25,591 nucleotides of DNA from positions 1 through 25,591 of IMG/VR virus record IMGVR_UViG_3300035157_000090; one strand, given 5' to 3'. Below the pieces are notes generated by a model. The model was not told the origin of the DNA. It did not search any database and saw only the letters and a program-made list of their open reading frames with translations. Positions 4,230 to 24,177 of the stretch are shown here, in pieces. The translations under genes and the position numbers were made by a program. This stretch comes from a virus. Each line of letters opens with the position of its first letter. Position 1 is the stretch's first letter.

Positions 4230-6668
4230 ATGGCAAGTCAAATCTCGCCTGGTGTTGTCATTAAAGAAAGAGATCTTACAACTGGTACAGTTGTTAACTC
4301 TGCTGCAACTAAAGCAGCAGTTGTTTCAACATTCCAGAAAGGTCCAGTTAATGAAATCACCACGATAGCTTCTCAAAGAGAATTAGTAGACACATTTGGT
4401 AGTCCAGGTGACTCGAATGCAGATGACTTTTTTGTAGCATCTGAATTCTTGAACTATGGAGGTCGCCTTGCTGTGGTACGTGCAGAAACTGGTGCGGTCA
4501 ACGCTGGTGCTGCTGCTATCATCCGTAACAAAGTTGACTACGAATCTCGTATAGAAGCAACCACTCCAGCATGGAAGTGGGCTGCTCAAACACCTGGTAT
4601 TTGGGGCAACGATTATGACGTTGTTATTGCAGACCGTGGTGCAGATCAATATGTAACATTTGCTTCAGCACCTGCTGGTATAACTGCTGGTACAAACTTA
4701 ACATTTAGTTCAGGTAAGGGAGGAGAAGTTCTTTCTTATGATGCTGCAACATATACTGCTGCTGTTATTCTGGATGATCCTACAAGTAGAATTACTGCAT
4801 CCGATACCCTTGATACTCCCGATGAGGGTCGTGTAACAGGATTCACTGTTAGTGCTGGTGGTGTTAACTACACAACAGGTACTGGATTAGTAACCACAGG
4901 TGGTGCTGGATCTGGTGCTAAAGTAGATATTACAGTATCTTCTGGTGCTCCTTCAACTCTTACACTTACCGCACCTGGATCAACATATGGTGCTACTGGA
5001 ACTAACGTAGCAACATCTGGTGGTAATGGATCTAACCTAACTGTAGACTTCACTTCAACTGGTGGTGTTATTGATAGCGTATCTATCAACACTGCTGGTA
5101 CAGGATACACAGTTGGAGATGTAGTAACAATTACTGGTGGTGGTAACAACGCACAGGTGACCATCGCTGCTGTAAAAGGTGCAATCACTGCTGCTGTTGT
5201 TGCAACAGATGGTGCTGGTGAAGGATATGCTGTTGGTAATACATTAACAGTTGTTCAGACTGGTGCATCTTCAGGTACAGTTGACGTTGCTACAATCCAA
5301 GACTCAACAATCGCTGTTACTGTTTCCGATTGGTGGACTAATACAAATACAGATGGTACTCAATCAGCTGCTGCTGATGGTAAGATTAAACTATCTGCTG
5401 TTGGTCCTCGCCCAGGTACTTCACAGTTCGCTGCTGATCGTGGTCTCTCATATGACGAGGTTCATGTTGGAGTTATTAACAGAACTGAAGGTACTGTTGT
5501 TGAAAGGATTCAATACCTTTCTAAGTTTACTGATGGTGTATCAACAGAAGGTGCTTCTGCATACTACCCAACAATTGTAAAGGAAGTATCTAACTACGTT
5601 TACTTTGGTTCACATATAACTGCTGCACATAACCCTTCTAGTGGTGGTGCTGGTCTTGCTGTAGGTACTGCTGCTGCTTCTGCTGCCTCAGGATCTAAGA
5701 TGCAACTCTTTGGTACTGTACAAACAGTACTTGCTGGTGGTACTGATGATTATGCATACACACCTGCTGAGTTCACAACTGGAATAGAATTATTCAATGA
5801 TACTGAGACAGTTGATGTAGACTACATCCTTATGGGTGGTTCAATGTCTACTGAAGCAGATACTAAGTTGAAAGCAGCACAGTGTATCACAACTGCTAAC
5901 CTAAGAAAAGATGCTATCGCATTTGTTTCTACACATAAAGGTAATCAGGTATCTGGTACAGTTGCACTCTCAAGGACTGATCAGAAGGATAATACAATTA
6001 ACTTCTTCTCTTCTTTGGGTTCTACATCATTCGCTGTATTTGATAGTGGTTATAAGTATTTCTATGATCGCTTTAACGATAAGTATCGCTACGTTCCTTG
6101 TAACGGTGACGTTGCTGGTCTATGTGTCGCAACTTCTGCAACACTTGATGACTGGTTCTCACCTGCTGGACTATCACGTGGTGGTGTGAGAAATGCTATT
6201 AAACTAGCATACAACCCAACTCAATCTGATAGAGATGAACTTTATCAGAATAGAATCAACCCAATTGTTTCATTCCCTGGCCAAGGCATAACCTTGTTCG
6301 GTGATAAGACTGCATTGTCTTCACCTTCAGCGTTTGATCGTATTAACGTTCGCCGTCTCTTCATCAATATTGAGGAGAGAGCTGAAGCACTTGCTAAGGC
6401 AGTCATCTTTGAACAGAATGATGAAACAACTAGACTTGGATTCACTAATGCACTTGGATCTTACCTTTCTGAGGTACAGGCAAGAAGGGGCATCACAGAT
6501 TTCCAAGTTGTGTGTGATGAGTCAAACAACACTGCTAGTGTAATTGATCGTAACGAATTTGTTGCTGAAGTTTATGTTAAACCAACACGTTCTATCAACT
6601 TTATCACTCTATCGTTCGTTGCTACCAGATCTGGAGTTTCATTCAGTGAAGTCGTAGGACGTTCTTAA
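4230..6668 (+). CDS. gp18: Tail sheath protein with inserted beta-rich modules
   Basis: 812 residues, clearly longer than T4 gp18 (659). The N-terminus (SQISPGVVIKERDLTTGTVV) and the C-terminal half (FDRINVRRLFINIEERAEA, then a basic/aromatic C-terminal domain) are typical of contractile sheath proteins. Between them, residues about 202-358 form four Gly/Thr/Val-rich repeats of roughly 38-41 residues (see the repeat entry). The protein polymerises around the gp19 tube and contracts to inject DNA. The insert probably sits on the outer surface, as the variable domains of T4 gp18 do (inference). Ribosome site GGGAG is about ten bases ahead of ATG 4230; gp19 follows after 35 bases. Confidence 0.96.
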   Translation: MASQISPGVVIKERDLTTGTVVNSAATKAAVVSTFQKGPVNEITTIASQRELVDTFGSPGDSNADDFFVASEFLNYGGRLAVVRAETGAVNAGAAAIIRNKVDYESRIEATTPAWKWAAQTPGIWGNDYDVVIADRGADQYVTFASAPAGITAGTNLTFSSGKGGEVLSYDAATYTAAVILDDPTSRITASDTLDTPDEGRVTGFTVSAGGVNYTTGTGLVTTGGAGSGAKVDITVSSGAPSTLTLTAPGSTYGATGTNVATSGGNGSNLTVDFTSTGGVIDSVSINTAGTGYTVGDVVTITGGGNNAQVTIAAVKGAITAAVVATDGAGEGYAVGNTLTVVQTGASSGTVDVATIQDSTIAVTVSDWWTNTNTDGTQSAAADGKIKLSAVGPRPGTSQFAADRGLSYDEVHVGVINRTEGTVVERIQYLSKFTDGVSTEGASAYYPTIVKEVSNYVYFGSHITAAHNPSSGGAGLAVGTAAASAASGSKMQLFGTVQTVLAGGTDDYAYTPAEFTTGIELFNDTETVDVDYILMGGSMSTEADTKLKAAQCITTANLRKDAIAFVSTHKGNQVSGTVALSRTDQKDNTINFFSSLGSTSFAVFDSGYKYFYDRFNDKYRYVPCNGDVAGLCVATSATLDDWFSPAGLSRGGVRNAIKLAYNPTQSDRDELYQNRINPIVSFPGQGITLFGDKTALSSPSAFDRINVRRLFINIEERAEALAKAVIFEQNDETTRLGFTNALGSYLSEVQARRGITDFQVVCDESNNTASVIDRNEFVAEVYVKPTRSINFITLSFVATRSGVSFSEVVGRS
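4833..5303 (+). repeat. Four tandem ~39-residue modules inside gp18
   Basis: Encoded residues 202-358 split into four related units starting at about 202, 243, 283 and 321. Each has a beta strand, a Gly-rich turn and a second strand. The signature is G-x-x-Y-x-x-G-x-x-(V/L)-x-(T/V), seen as GVNYTTGTGLVTTGG, STYGATGTNVATSGG, GTGYTVGDVVTITGG and GEGYAVGNTLTVVQTG. The repeat is protein-level and diverged; the DNA is not identical between copies. Such modules are common in cyanophage virion proteins. Confidence 0.8.
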
Positions 6669-13112: not shown

Positions 13113-13631
13113 ATGCCTTCAAATTGGTATACTGAACAACTGTCGAATAGAAATTATCTATCTCCTCTTGGATTCAATCTCGAATTGGAACTTTTTAGAG
13201 GGGTAGATTTCTTTTGTCAGGCAGCAAATATACCAGACATTGAAATGCCTGTAACAGAAGTTCCTACAAGGTTTCGTAATCTACCTATTATACCTGGTGG
13301 TGGAGTTACCTTTGGGGATTTGAATGTTCGATTTATTATCGATGAATCACTAGTCAATTACCTATCAATTCACAAATGGATACGTGCTAATGGTAATGCT
13401 GATGCAAGTGATAAAGTTCCCGACACTCCAGAGTATAGTAATGCACAGTTGATTGTTAACACATCAAACTTCAATACTAATTTCTCTGTTAATTTTTCTA
13501 ATATATTTCCTATATCACTTTCTGGTGTTCAGTTTGATGCTTCATTAACTGACCAGGAATACTTGACTGCTGATGTTACTTTTAAATATCAGACCTATAC
13601 TATAACTGATAAGAATCTGAATGAACTTTGA
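13113..13631 (+). CDS. gp3: Tail completion/tube-terminator-like protein (gp3-like)
   Basis: 172 residues, close to T4 gp3 (176). The pattern FNLELELFRGVDFFCQAANI, then GGGVTFGDLNVRFIIDESLV with NYLSIHKWIRANG, is that of the tail-tube fold shared by gp19-type proteins. In T4-like cyanophages the gene between gp23 and uvsY is usually the tail completion/sheath stabiliser gp3, which caps the tube. I assign it on position, length and fold pattern; a tube-initiator-type (gp48/54) relative is the alternative. GGGAAG (13102-13107) serves as ribosome site. The last 11 bases overlap uvsY. Confidence 0.6.
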   Translation: MPSNWYTEQLSNRNYLSPLGFNLELELFRGVDFFCQAANIPDIEMPVTEVPTRFRNLPIIPGGGVTFGDLNVRFIIDESLVNYLSIHKWIRANGNADASDKVPDTPEYSNAQLIVNTSNFNTNFSVNFSNIFPISLSGVQFDASLTDQEYLTADVTFKYQTYTITDKNLNEL

Positions 13632-23082: not shown

Positions 23083-24177
23083 ATGCCTTTTGAACCAGCA
23101 CCAGTAACTACAGAAGATTTTGTAGAGTTTTTAACCGACAAGTTCGGTCCCGAAGTGAATGCACCACAAGTACGTGAAGCGGCTGCACACTTCAATGTTG
23201 GTTACCAAACAGCGATCAAGAGGATCCGTCAATACCATGTTAAGCGTGGTCAGTGGAATTTAACTGTTGCAGAAAAACTAGAGAGAGTCTATGAAGGACT
23301 ACCTGCTACACCTGCTGTAGAGCAGAATTTAATTCCAATTAAGGATCCAAACTTTGTACCTTTTGGTAACTTCTCTGATGTGAAGAGAATCGTTCAGTCA
23401 GGGATGTTTTATCCTACTTTCATTACAGGTCTATCAGGTAATGGTAAGACACTTAGTGTAGAACAAGCATGTTCTCAACTTGGTAGAGAATTGATTCGTG
23501 TAAACATCACCATTGAAACTGATGAAGACGATCTTATTGGTGGGTTCCGTCTTGTTGATGGGGCAACTGTTTGGCATAACGGACCTGTCATTGAAGCACT
23601 TGAACGAGGAGCAATCTTGTTACTCGATGAGGTTGACTTGGCTAGTAACAAAATCCTATGCCTCCAATCCATACTTGAAGGCAAAGGTGTGTTCCTCAAA
23701 AAAATCGGTAGGTTTGTCAGACCTGCGGTAGGATTCAATGTATTCGCTACTGCTAATACTAAGGGTAAAGGATCTGATGATGGTAGATTCATTGGTACAA
23801 ATGTACTCAATGAAGCATTCCTAGAGAGATTTGCTTTAACCTTTGAGCAAGATTATCCTACTCCTAAGACTGAGCAGAAGATCCTTGAGAAGGTTGCTTC
23901 TAATCTAGGTGTCCTTGATGAGGGATTCTGTGAGAATCTTTCTAATTGGTCAGACATTATTCGTAAGACCTTTAAGGATGGTGGAATAGATGAAGTGATC
24001 TCTACACGTAGATTGGTTCATATCATTCGTGCTTATGCAATCTGGAATGATAGAATCAAAGCAATCAAGGTTTGTGTAAATAGATTTGACGAGGAGACTA
24101 AGCAATCCTTTGTTGATCTATATGATAAGATTGATGCTAAAGTAGATCTAGAGGAGGAACCCGATGAGTTTGAATAA
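23083..24177 (+). CDS. cobS: CobS-like MoxR-family AAA+ ATPase
   Basis: 364 residues. Residues about 28-57 (PQVREAAAHFNVGYQTAIKR and on) look like a helix-turn-helix. The AAA+ core has Walker A GLSGNGKT (116-123), Walker B ILLLDEVD (178-185), sensor 1 FATANT (221-226) and an arginine-finger segment LNEAFLERF (R249). ETDEDDLIGGFRL and the DEVDLAS block are typical of the CobS/MoxR group. Cyanophage CobS is commonly described as a cobalt chelatase subunit and auxiliary metabolic gene; the VWA-metallopeptidase neighbour makes a MoxR-VWA remodelling role equally plausible. The ribosome site is weak. The gene end overlaps the next start by 14 bases. Confidence 0.85.
   Translation: MPFEPAPVTTEDFVEFLTDKFGPEVNAPQVREAAAHFNVGYQTAIKRIRQYHVKRGQWNLTVAEKLERVYEGLPATPAVEQNLIPIKDPNFVPFGNFSDVKRIVQSGMFYPTFITGLSGNGKTLSVEQACSQLGRELIRVNITIETDEDDLIGGFRLVDGATVWHNGPVIEALERGAILLLDEVDLASNKILCLQSILEGKGVFLKKIGRFVRPAVGFNVFATANTKGKGSDDGRFIGTNVLNEAFLERFALTFEQDYPTPKTEQKILEKVASNLGVLDEGFCENLSNWSDIIRKTFKDGGIDEVISTRRLVHIIRAYAIWNDRIKAIKVCVNRFDEETKQSFVDLYDKIDAKVDLEEEPDEFE

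Follow-up and report, generated by a model that had tools for sequence, protein, structure and literature searches.

The tail sheath protein gp18 encoded in IMG/VR virus record IMGVR_UViG_3300035157_000090 (a complete record of 25,591 bases and a stretch of T4-like cyanophage genome, referred to as the window) carries an insert made of four diverged units of about 38 residues, spanning residues 200-356 (window 4827-5297). These units belong to two types in the order A-A-B-B, the insert is an optional part of related sheaths and occupies a defined position in their sequence, and the same modules recur in other virion proteins. The insert is a real and well-delimited case of a known habit, that of sheaths carrying extra beta domains, and a more orderly one than was held in the first-pass annotation, which had been made from the letters of the window alone.

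Four modules of two types

The units were delimited with a module hidden Markov model (HMM), typed on a unit tree and compared with a structural model, as follows:

4827..4940, plus strand: module 1, type A (residues 200-237); module HMM 33.6 bits, type by tree, three model strands
4944..5060, plus strand: module 2, type A (residues 239-277); module HMM 40.2 bits, tree and model
5064..5174, plus strand: module 3, type B (residues 279-315); module HMM 49.4 bits, tree and model
5178..5297, plus strand: module 4, type B, more diverged than the other three in gp18 (residues 317-356); module HMM 24.6 bits, tree and model

The first-pass annotation had placed the units at 4833-5303, i.e., residues 202-358, which is in frame and essentially correct. 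Because the module HMM behind these four scores includes the window's own units, each unit position was left out in turn as an independent test. The resulting HMMs recovered the omitted fourth unit with medians of 27.8, 23.5, 38.9, and 31.2 bits for positions 1-4 (n=29, 30, 30, and 29), the shuffled maxima being 6.8, 13.1, 5.8, and 9.4 bits (580-600 shuffles each). Across 34 inserts, the columns that never vary include both letters of the G..Y motif in every unit. Some results weigh against this picture: the weakest single units fall within the range of the shuffles at position 2 (10.9 bits) and at position 4 (6.6 bits), the window's own unit 4 scores 8.7 bits in the leave-out test, under the shuffled maximum of that position, and in pairwise comparison the unit pairs 1-4 and 2-4 of the window do not rise above shuffles. 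No tandem repeat of the units is left in the window at the DNA level and, beyond the four units, nothing exceeds noise with the module HMM in its open frames of at least 50 codons. The repeat units in gp18 are nonetheless real and beyond chance, and the four diverged beta-rich units by which the sheath had been said to be enlarged are borne out by the module HMM together with the leave-out test.

That the insert is an artefact of low-complexity Gly/Thr/Ser-rich sequence is hardly credible. While 48% of its residues are G, S, and T, and a tblastn search with the insert alone reached only 9 records, S-CAM3 not among them (which we attribute to the BLAST low-complexity filter, the search being dropped in favor of profiles), shuffles of the same composition mostly score far lower, columns are invariant across the 34 proteins, and the predicted fold is confident.

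Four equal tandem copies are ruled out by the identities and by the unit tree. Within the same protein (n=29 proteins), units 1 and 2 are 46.5% identical and units 3 and 4 44.7%, against 29-33% for all other pairs. The tree, built from 72 units (70 sheath units of less than 80% identity and two from a neck protein), separates units 1 and 2 from units 3 and 4 with 0 of 72 misplaced and a support of 0.878, while the alternative two-by-two groupings misplace 20 and 22. The units are of two types ordered A-A-B-B; the early proposal of four related units therefore stands, except that they are two A and two B rather than equal copies, and the duplication that it suggested within the insert is supported by this order and by copy numbers that change in pairs. 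The A-B pair can be regarded as the natural unit, since contiguous A-B pairs occur in neck and giant proteins: a 353-amino-acid (aa) protein of Marine virus AG-345-P14, matching the head-tail adaptor Ad2 (1.1e-41), carries a lone pair with one unit on each side of the tree, and more contiguous pairs are found in two giant structural proteins (L269 and L266). The gene of the former (L260:3546-4604) is an Ad2 (gp13-like) gene with a single inserted A-B pair. Most simply, A-A-B-B results from one A-B pair placed within another, although the order would be no different had A and B each been doubled in tandem on their own.

Regarding size, the excess of about 150 aa over T4 gp18 noted at first is numerically right (T4 has 659 aa, a difference of 153), but T4 is not the best yardstick; its gp18 has its own 91-residue domain I, and the corresponding site is empty in these phages. 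Insert-free cyanophage gp18 proteins measure 633-645 aa in eight of those translated and 669 aa in P-HM2. Between the same anchor columns, 163 residues are found in the window and 11 in the sheath L067, so that, of the 167 residues that the window gp18 has in excess of the latter, 152 are accounted for by the insert.

Insertion site, predicted fold and relation to T4 domain I

The insert is held by a small beta segment, the two sides of which are:

4647..4823, plus strand: small beta segment holding the insert, left side (residues 140-198), from the alignment and model strands
5298..5345, plus strand: right side of the insertion site, a strand followed by the DWW motif (residues 357-372), from the alignment and model

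In the alignment, insert-free cyanophage gp18 has a shorter or equal version of the left side. The insert is preceded by an AGxWGNxxxVxxxDRGAD-like motif and followed by DW(W/Y)xNT. When profiles of T4-type sheaths and of insert-free cyanophage sheaths are aligned locally, the cyanophage strand before the insert aligns with T4 residues 189-241 (expectation value, E, 0.0017; 0.00088 for the same match on a shorter slice), which places T4 domain I (residues 98-188, before the PG..G. strand) upstream of this strand and the insert downstream of it. A second match further on is collinear but insignificant. The insert does not occupy the position of T4 domain I, and the idea that it is an enlarged T4 domain I was discarded on position, the register of a global alignment being unreliable there. 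This difference in site weighs against likening the two, and the match that anchors it is modest at the above E values. Both the insert site and T4 domain I fall within the equivalent of the protease-resistant part of T4 gp18 (residues 83-365), described as exposed on the tail (PMC3004832). By analogy with T4, the insert is thus very probably displayed outward in the exposed domain II of the sheath subunit, in agreement with the surface-exposed domain first proposed.

As for the fold, a model of whole gp18 reaches some of its highest confidence in the insert (block means 85-95). Residues 186-372 modeled alone give a confident beta fold with a predicted local distance difference test score (pLDDT) of 91, a predicted template modeling score (pTM) of 0.80 and twelve strands; the insert is predicted to fold independently with three strands per module. 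Against this stand a whole-gp18 model that is poor overall (pTM 0.44), the few sequences feeding the models (37 for whole gp18 and 34 for the insert), the absence of any PDB chain matching the insert at E <= 0.001 with Foldseek (best E 1.7) and the low scores of the 13 VIA rows obtained for it (Z 3.0-4.2). Searches against PDB sequences returned nothing with phmmer (E up to 10) or hmmsearch (E up to 1).

In five of the VIA rows, model residues 52 or 53 to 132, corresponding to modules 2 and 3, are placed on six-stranded EF-Tu-type barrels (72-78 residues aligned, Z 3.0-3.6), a Z so low that it can reflect a common arrangement only. The remaining eight rows span both ends of the insert (65-79 aligned) and, from these ranges alone, would fit a pairing of modules 1 and 4. 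The six strands of modules 2 and 3, with these weak barrel matches, also bear on the six-stranded barrel by which T4 domain I is recognized. Two nested six-stranded barrels are on balance the probable arrangement, a reading kept weak by the lack of a PDB match and by a best VIA Z of 4.2. A single closed 12-stranded domain is the less likely structure: it would agree with the insert being predicted as one confident unit and with the lack of three-module forms among the 191 full-length sheaths examined below, but pairs stand alone in the neck protein and in S-PM2-type sheaths, and the five barrel matches cover exactly modules 2 and 3. No Ig-like (immunoglobulin-like) family is found among the five Pfam families matching the 34 inserts at E <= 0.1; as regards an Ig fold, there is no Foldseek row at E <= 0.001 and all VIA rows lie below Z 5, which are weak scores, with neither an Ig-like protein nor T4 domain I among the 13, an absence that leaves either fold conceivable.

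A link to T4 domain I can be found in the B modules. The B profile matches T4-type sheaths at TISTPGSNYAVGDKITV and equivalents, 21 of 22 scoring at least 9.0 bits (the one exception, LPCS28, scores 0.2 bits), against a shuffled maximum of 7.3 bits in 1,100 shuffles, of which 750 gave a score. In profile-profile comparison, B matches T4 domain I with E 1.1e-6 and probability 91; among 13 segments along T4 gp18, the two containing the motif score 33 and the other 11 at most 12.9, reversed domain I giving 14.0. The G..Y.VGD motif of the B type (our criterion, not that of Pfam) is present in T4 domain I. Other results speak against a wider relationship: in profile-profile comparison the A profile gives nothing significant with T4 domain I, the second half of which is matched by neither module type, and Pfam Gp18_dom_I (PF22639) is far under its cut-off in the window (10.7 vs. 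27 bits). That this second half is an A module, an idea formed by eye, is unsupported (E 0.1). Among the 34 inserts, 22 are matched by PF22639 at E <= 0.1, with 8.6e-4 as the best value, but that of the window is not one of them. Part of one module is likely homologous to T4 domain I, judging from these profiles, while homology of the whole domain is unproven. Homology to a T4 domain over the full length, which would have contradicted the first-pass annotation, does not hold for the segment and T4 domain I, the site being different and the shared motif being of about 22 residues; yet the segment is not wholly foreign to T4 gp18, given the B motif in domain I.

This domain protrudes from the T4 sheath and is described as making no subunit contacts and as binding the baseplate and the retracted long fibers, whose retraction is inhibited by the domain I mutations G106S, S175F, and A178V (PMC3004832). 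The T4 sequence fits this numbering without the initiator Met, in which case G106 coincides with the first conserved Gly in the motif shared with the B modules. The motif ties cyanophage diversity to a T4 domain with recorded fiber-retraction mutants.

Occurrence among sheaths and other virion proteins

Copy number was examined in 256 sheath sequences (255 loci and the window), all with a sheath frame, of which 191 full-length ones were kept and 65 dropped. At 8 bits, no unit is found in 107 of them, one in 19, two in 3, and four in 62, and no three-module sheath was seen. Fifteen of the 19 one-unit sheaths belong to T4-type phages, namely T4, Acj9, and loci that had been retrieved using T4 gp18; their single unit falls within frame residues 105-126. 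Ten S-PM2-type sheaths (open frames of 740-766 aa) were rescored at a permissive 4 bits without shuffles, five of them counting as 0 at 8 bits; a B match was found in all ten and an upstream A match in seven, whereas seven other large or odd sheaths rescored with them had no modules. Copy number thus moves in pairs, with none, about one pair, or four, which favors paired or nested duplication over an indefinitely extendable string of units. The comparison of relatives suggested at first does reveal a varying module number, varying however by pairs.

The sheath sets hold near-copies and were thinned to 87 rows, namely 53 without modules, 9 with one pair, and 25 with all four modules. Insert-bearing and insert-free sheaths interleave on the core tree, where these three states need 8 changes (shuffled mean 30.2), and well-supported branches force at least 4 changes for none, at least 3 for a pair, and 1 for four. 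The insert is optional and has been gained or lost repeatedly; the four-module form may have a single origin, since supported branches force only that one change.

Other sheath peculiarities were met in this set. The 932-aa sheath of S-WAM1, expected to hold more modules, has none at 4 bits; its gp18 (L265:303-3101) has an insert of another kind, apparently repeated, which lies upstream of the PG.YGN strand and close to the position of domain I in T4. Four full-length sheaths of 854-877 aa (L163, L164, L166, and L168) have no modules at 8 bits, pointing to other large inserts. The gp18 of ACG-2014e (L084:501-2506) is annotated as 582 aa, and its tblastn match continues in three pieces, which suggests a frame break, and that of Proteus phage PM2 (L113:1513-3509) is annotated as two adjoining genes. 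The virion sheath gene of S-CREM2 (111494-113878) is reported as 2,385 bases (PMC10665884), which, if the stop is included, makes 794 aa, a four-module length as judged by length alone.

The modules recur in other virion proteins. An insert profile matches in 15 of 16 phage records, with none in T4. All eight cyanophages lacking the full sheath insert (S-PM2, P-HM2, ACG-2014e, Syn1, Sf-FP1, S-RSM4, S-H9-2, and S-RIM32) have matches, 9-19 each, which lie nearly throughout in other virion proteins, the sheath exception being a weak one in S-PM2 gp18; the S-PM2 genes concerned carry annotations as virion structural, virulence-associated, and tail fiber proteins. Searched against PHROGs, the inserts hit families of virion structural proteins, of the head closure Hc2, of the baseplate wedge, and of the tail fiber. 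A single-module profile matches in all 17 insert-bearing records, at the sheath as expected; several of these records have additional matches in giant proteins and in Hc2-type proteins of 478 and 489 aa. Contiguous A-B pairs, but no A-A-B-B block, were seen outside sheaths in the 12 loci examined.

In terms of selection, the ratio of nonsynonymous to synonymous substitution rates (dN/dS) of the insert is 0.18-0.66 in the 10 informative of 11 pairs tried, that of the C-terminal part is 0.04-0.16, and the insert exceeds the C-terminal part in every informative pair. The insert is under purifying but relaxed selection. Two points temper this: it exceeds residues 382-500 in 7 of the 10 pairs only and so is not uniquely relaxed, and a low dS, which may reflect exchange, raises the ratio in several pairs. 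When four sheath pairs were compared as DNA, clean cassette borders were found only between L211 (one pair of modules) and L204 (none), among 28 stretches listed; their flanks are 73-97% identical per 60 columns around an unlike or gapped segment, which reads as a cassette exchange. The G+C content is unremarkable.

The gene itself and its recognized domains are as follows:

4230..6668, plus strand: gp18, contractile tail sheath protein, 812 aa, from the open reading frame, Pfam, and PHROG
4314..4481, plus strand: Gp18 domain III N-terminal region (residues 29-84), PF22671, 36.5 bits, cut-off 27
5793..6314, plus strand: subtilisin-like sheath domain (residues 522-695), PF04984, 49.4 bits, cut-off 31.4
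6321..6623, plus strand: sheath C-terminal domain (residues 698-798), PF17482, 63.1 bits, cut-off 26.9

gp18 is a T4-type contractile tail sheath protein by its sheath domains, its domain III N-terminal region, and its match to solved sheath structures. It matches Pfam Phage_sheath_1C (2.8e-17), Phage_sheath_1 (6e-13), and Gp18_domIII_N (5.8e-9), the PHROG tail sheath (5.7e-119), and, with phmmer, the solved T4-like sheaths 9ev2 (1e-82) and T4 9mkb (2e-79); VIA aligns it with 3foa (Z 18.6, 322 residues aligned, root-mean-square deviation 5.2). The gene lies directly 3' of an endonuclease VII-like gene, in the same neighborhood as in S-CAM3 (terminase, endonuclease VII, sheath, tube, and portal), and the window matches 280 phage records with megablast, all of them named Synechococcus or Prochlorococcus phages, cyanophages, or marine viruses. 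Interspersed with T4-like genes in the window are a 2OG-Fe(II) oxygenase and a member of a porphyrin-biosynthesis family (920-1552 and 23083-24177); the window also holds a tail-tube family protein (phrog_45, 13113-13631) separate from the gene at the gp19 position, and, within the gp18 gene but outside the insert, a 27-base unit in two copies (6052-6105, 78% matches).

Possible roles of the insert and known sheath domains

With regards to function, we tentatively favor, at a strength short of probable, an autonomous beta domain built from two A-B pairs that would serve as an optional surface add-on, docking or spacing appendages much as T4 domain I does. One A-B barrel would have been inserted into another to give the A-A-B-B insert, which would protrude outward on domain II of the extended sheath and there dock or space tail fibers or other appendages, with no part in contraction itself. 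Such a role seems the likeliest by analogy: T4 domain I binds fibers, cyanomyoviruses have been reported to lack wac and several T4 fiber genes, S-PM2 being reported without a collar (PMC2984593), and cyanophage A-1(L) is described with a long fiber arm folded back along a groove on the sheath (PMC10966104), although its sheath is not a close relative of the window gp18 by Foldseek rank. That the insert specifically forms a docking surface for appendages is possible and somewhat more doubtful. With 138 subunits in the T4 sheath (PMC3004832), the sheath is highly repeated and an optional domain would be displayed in very many copies.

Instead of holding appendages, the barrels could cement the sheath by touching neighboring subunits and stabilizing the extended or contracted tail, as has been proposed for added sheath domains with reference to the domain II contacts of phage 812 (PMC9230969). 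A barrel pair could reach that far, but T4 domain I is described as free of subunit contacts (PMC3004832), the insert is absent from many relatives with a similar core, and its strands vary more than its turns (mean entropy 1.30 vs. 0.97 bits, over 99 and 60 positions), so that cementing appears unlikely. Binding of host polysaccharide or a receptor, strengthening adsorption along the tail, has been suggested for Ig-like added domains (PMC9230969), and both the faster protein change of the insert relative to the sheath core and the cassette exchange at its site fit an exposed, host-facing surface. However, the 157 residues include only 6 aromatics (H counted), 3 K/R, and 7 D/E, the invariant positions are mostly Gly and Tyr common to all four modules instead of a site in one of them, and dN/dS is below 1 in all informative pairs. 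A composition this poor in charges and aromatics, together with better conserved turns, speaks for a scaffold whose faces change rather than for a fixed site of binding; the receptor or polysaccharide binding raised by the first-pass annotation is unsupported and, in our view, improbable.

The insert could also have little function of its own, being a cassette that a tolerant loop gains or loses by recombination between conserved flanks. The L211-L204 comparison, the clearest of the four pairs, and the repeated gain or loss on the core tree would agree with this, but purifying selection on the insert and the exact retention of four modules in all 62 sheaths with strong modules make it slightly more improbable still than host binding. 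Bolder than the docking or spacing role favored here, and a long shot, is the thought that the cyanophage virion uses the A-B pair as a general coupling element, sheath barrels meeting matching barrels of the neck, baseplate wedge, and fibers. Were this so, the barrels would clip appendages along the tail of phages in which the T4 whisker gene is reported to be missing, the number of sheath pairs would set how appendages are stowed, and domain I would be what is left of the element in T4. In any case, sheaths with none, one pair, or two pairs offer a natural series for testing what sheath add-ons do. No title or abstract on these modules in a cyanophage sheath was found among the literature matches listed, subscription papers and preprints being mostly uncovered.

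Among the closest known systems, the added domains of multi-domain (type 3) sheaths are likewise beta-rich, located away from the tube, and thought to be evolutionary additions non-essential for contraction (Evseev et al., 2022, PMC9230969), but they are described there as mostly Ig-like, whereas the insert consists of short A-A-B-B modules. Neck, baseplate wedge, fiber, and giant proteins of cyanophages (PHROGs 701, 697, 4406, 438, 460, and 19630 among others) match the same module profiles, with the G..Y..G modules repeated but lower-scoring and more scattered than in the sheath. S-PM2 gp18 has an insertion at the same sheath site, with one weak, degenerate A-B pair in place of the two pairs of the window gp18. 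Finally, T4 gp18 domain I is also a beta domain inserted in domain II, protruding in T4, and one motif (TPGSNYAVGDKITV in T4) is common to it and the B modules; it is, however, a single domain upstream of the YPGELGD strand with a recognizable part of one module only, whereas the insert has four modules downstream of the matching strand.

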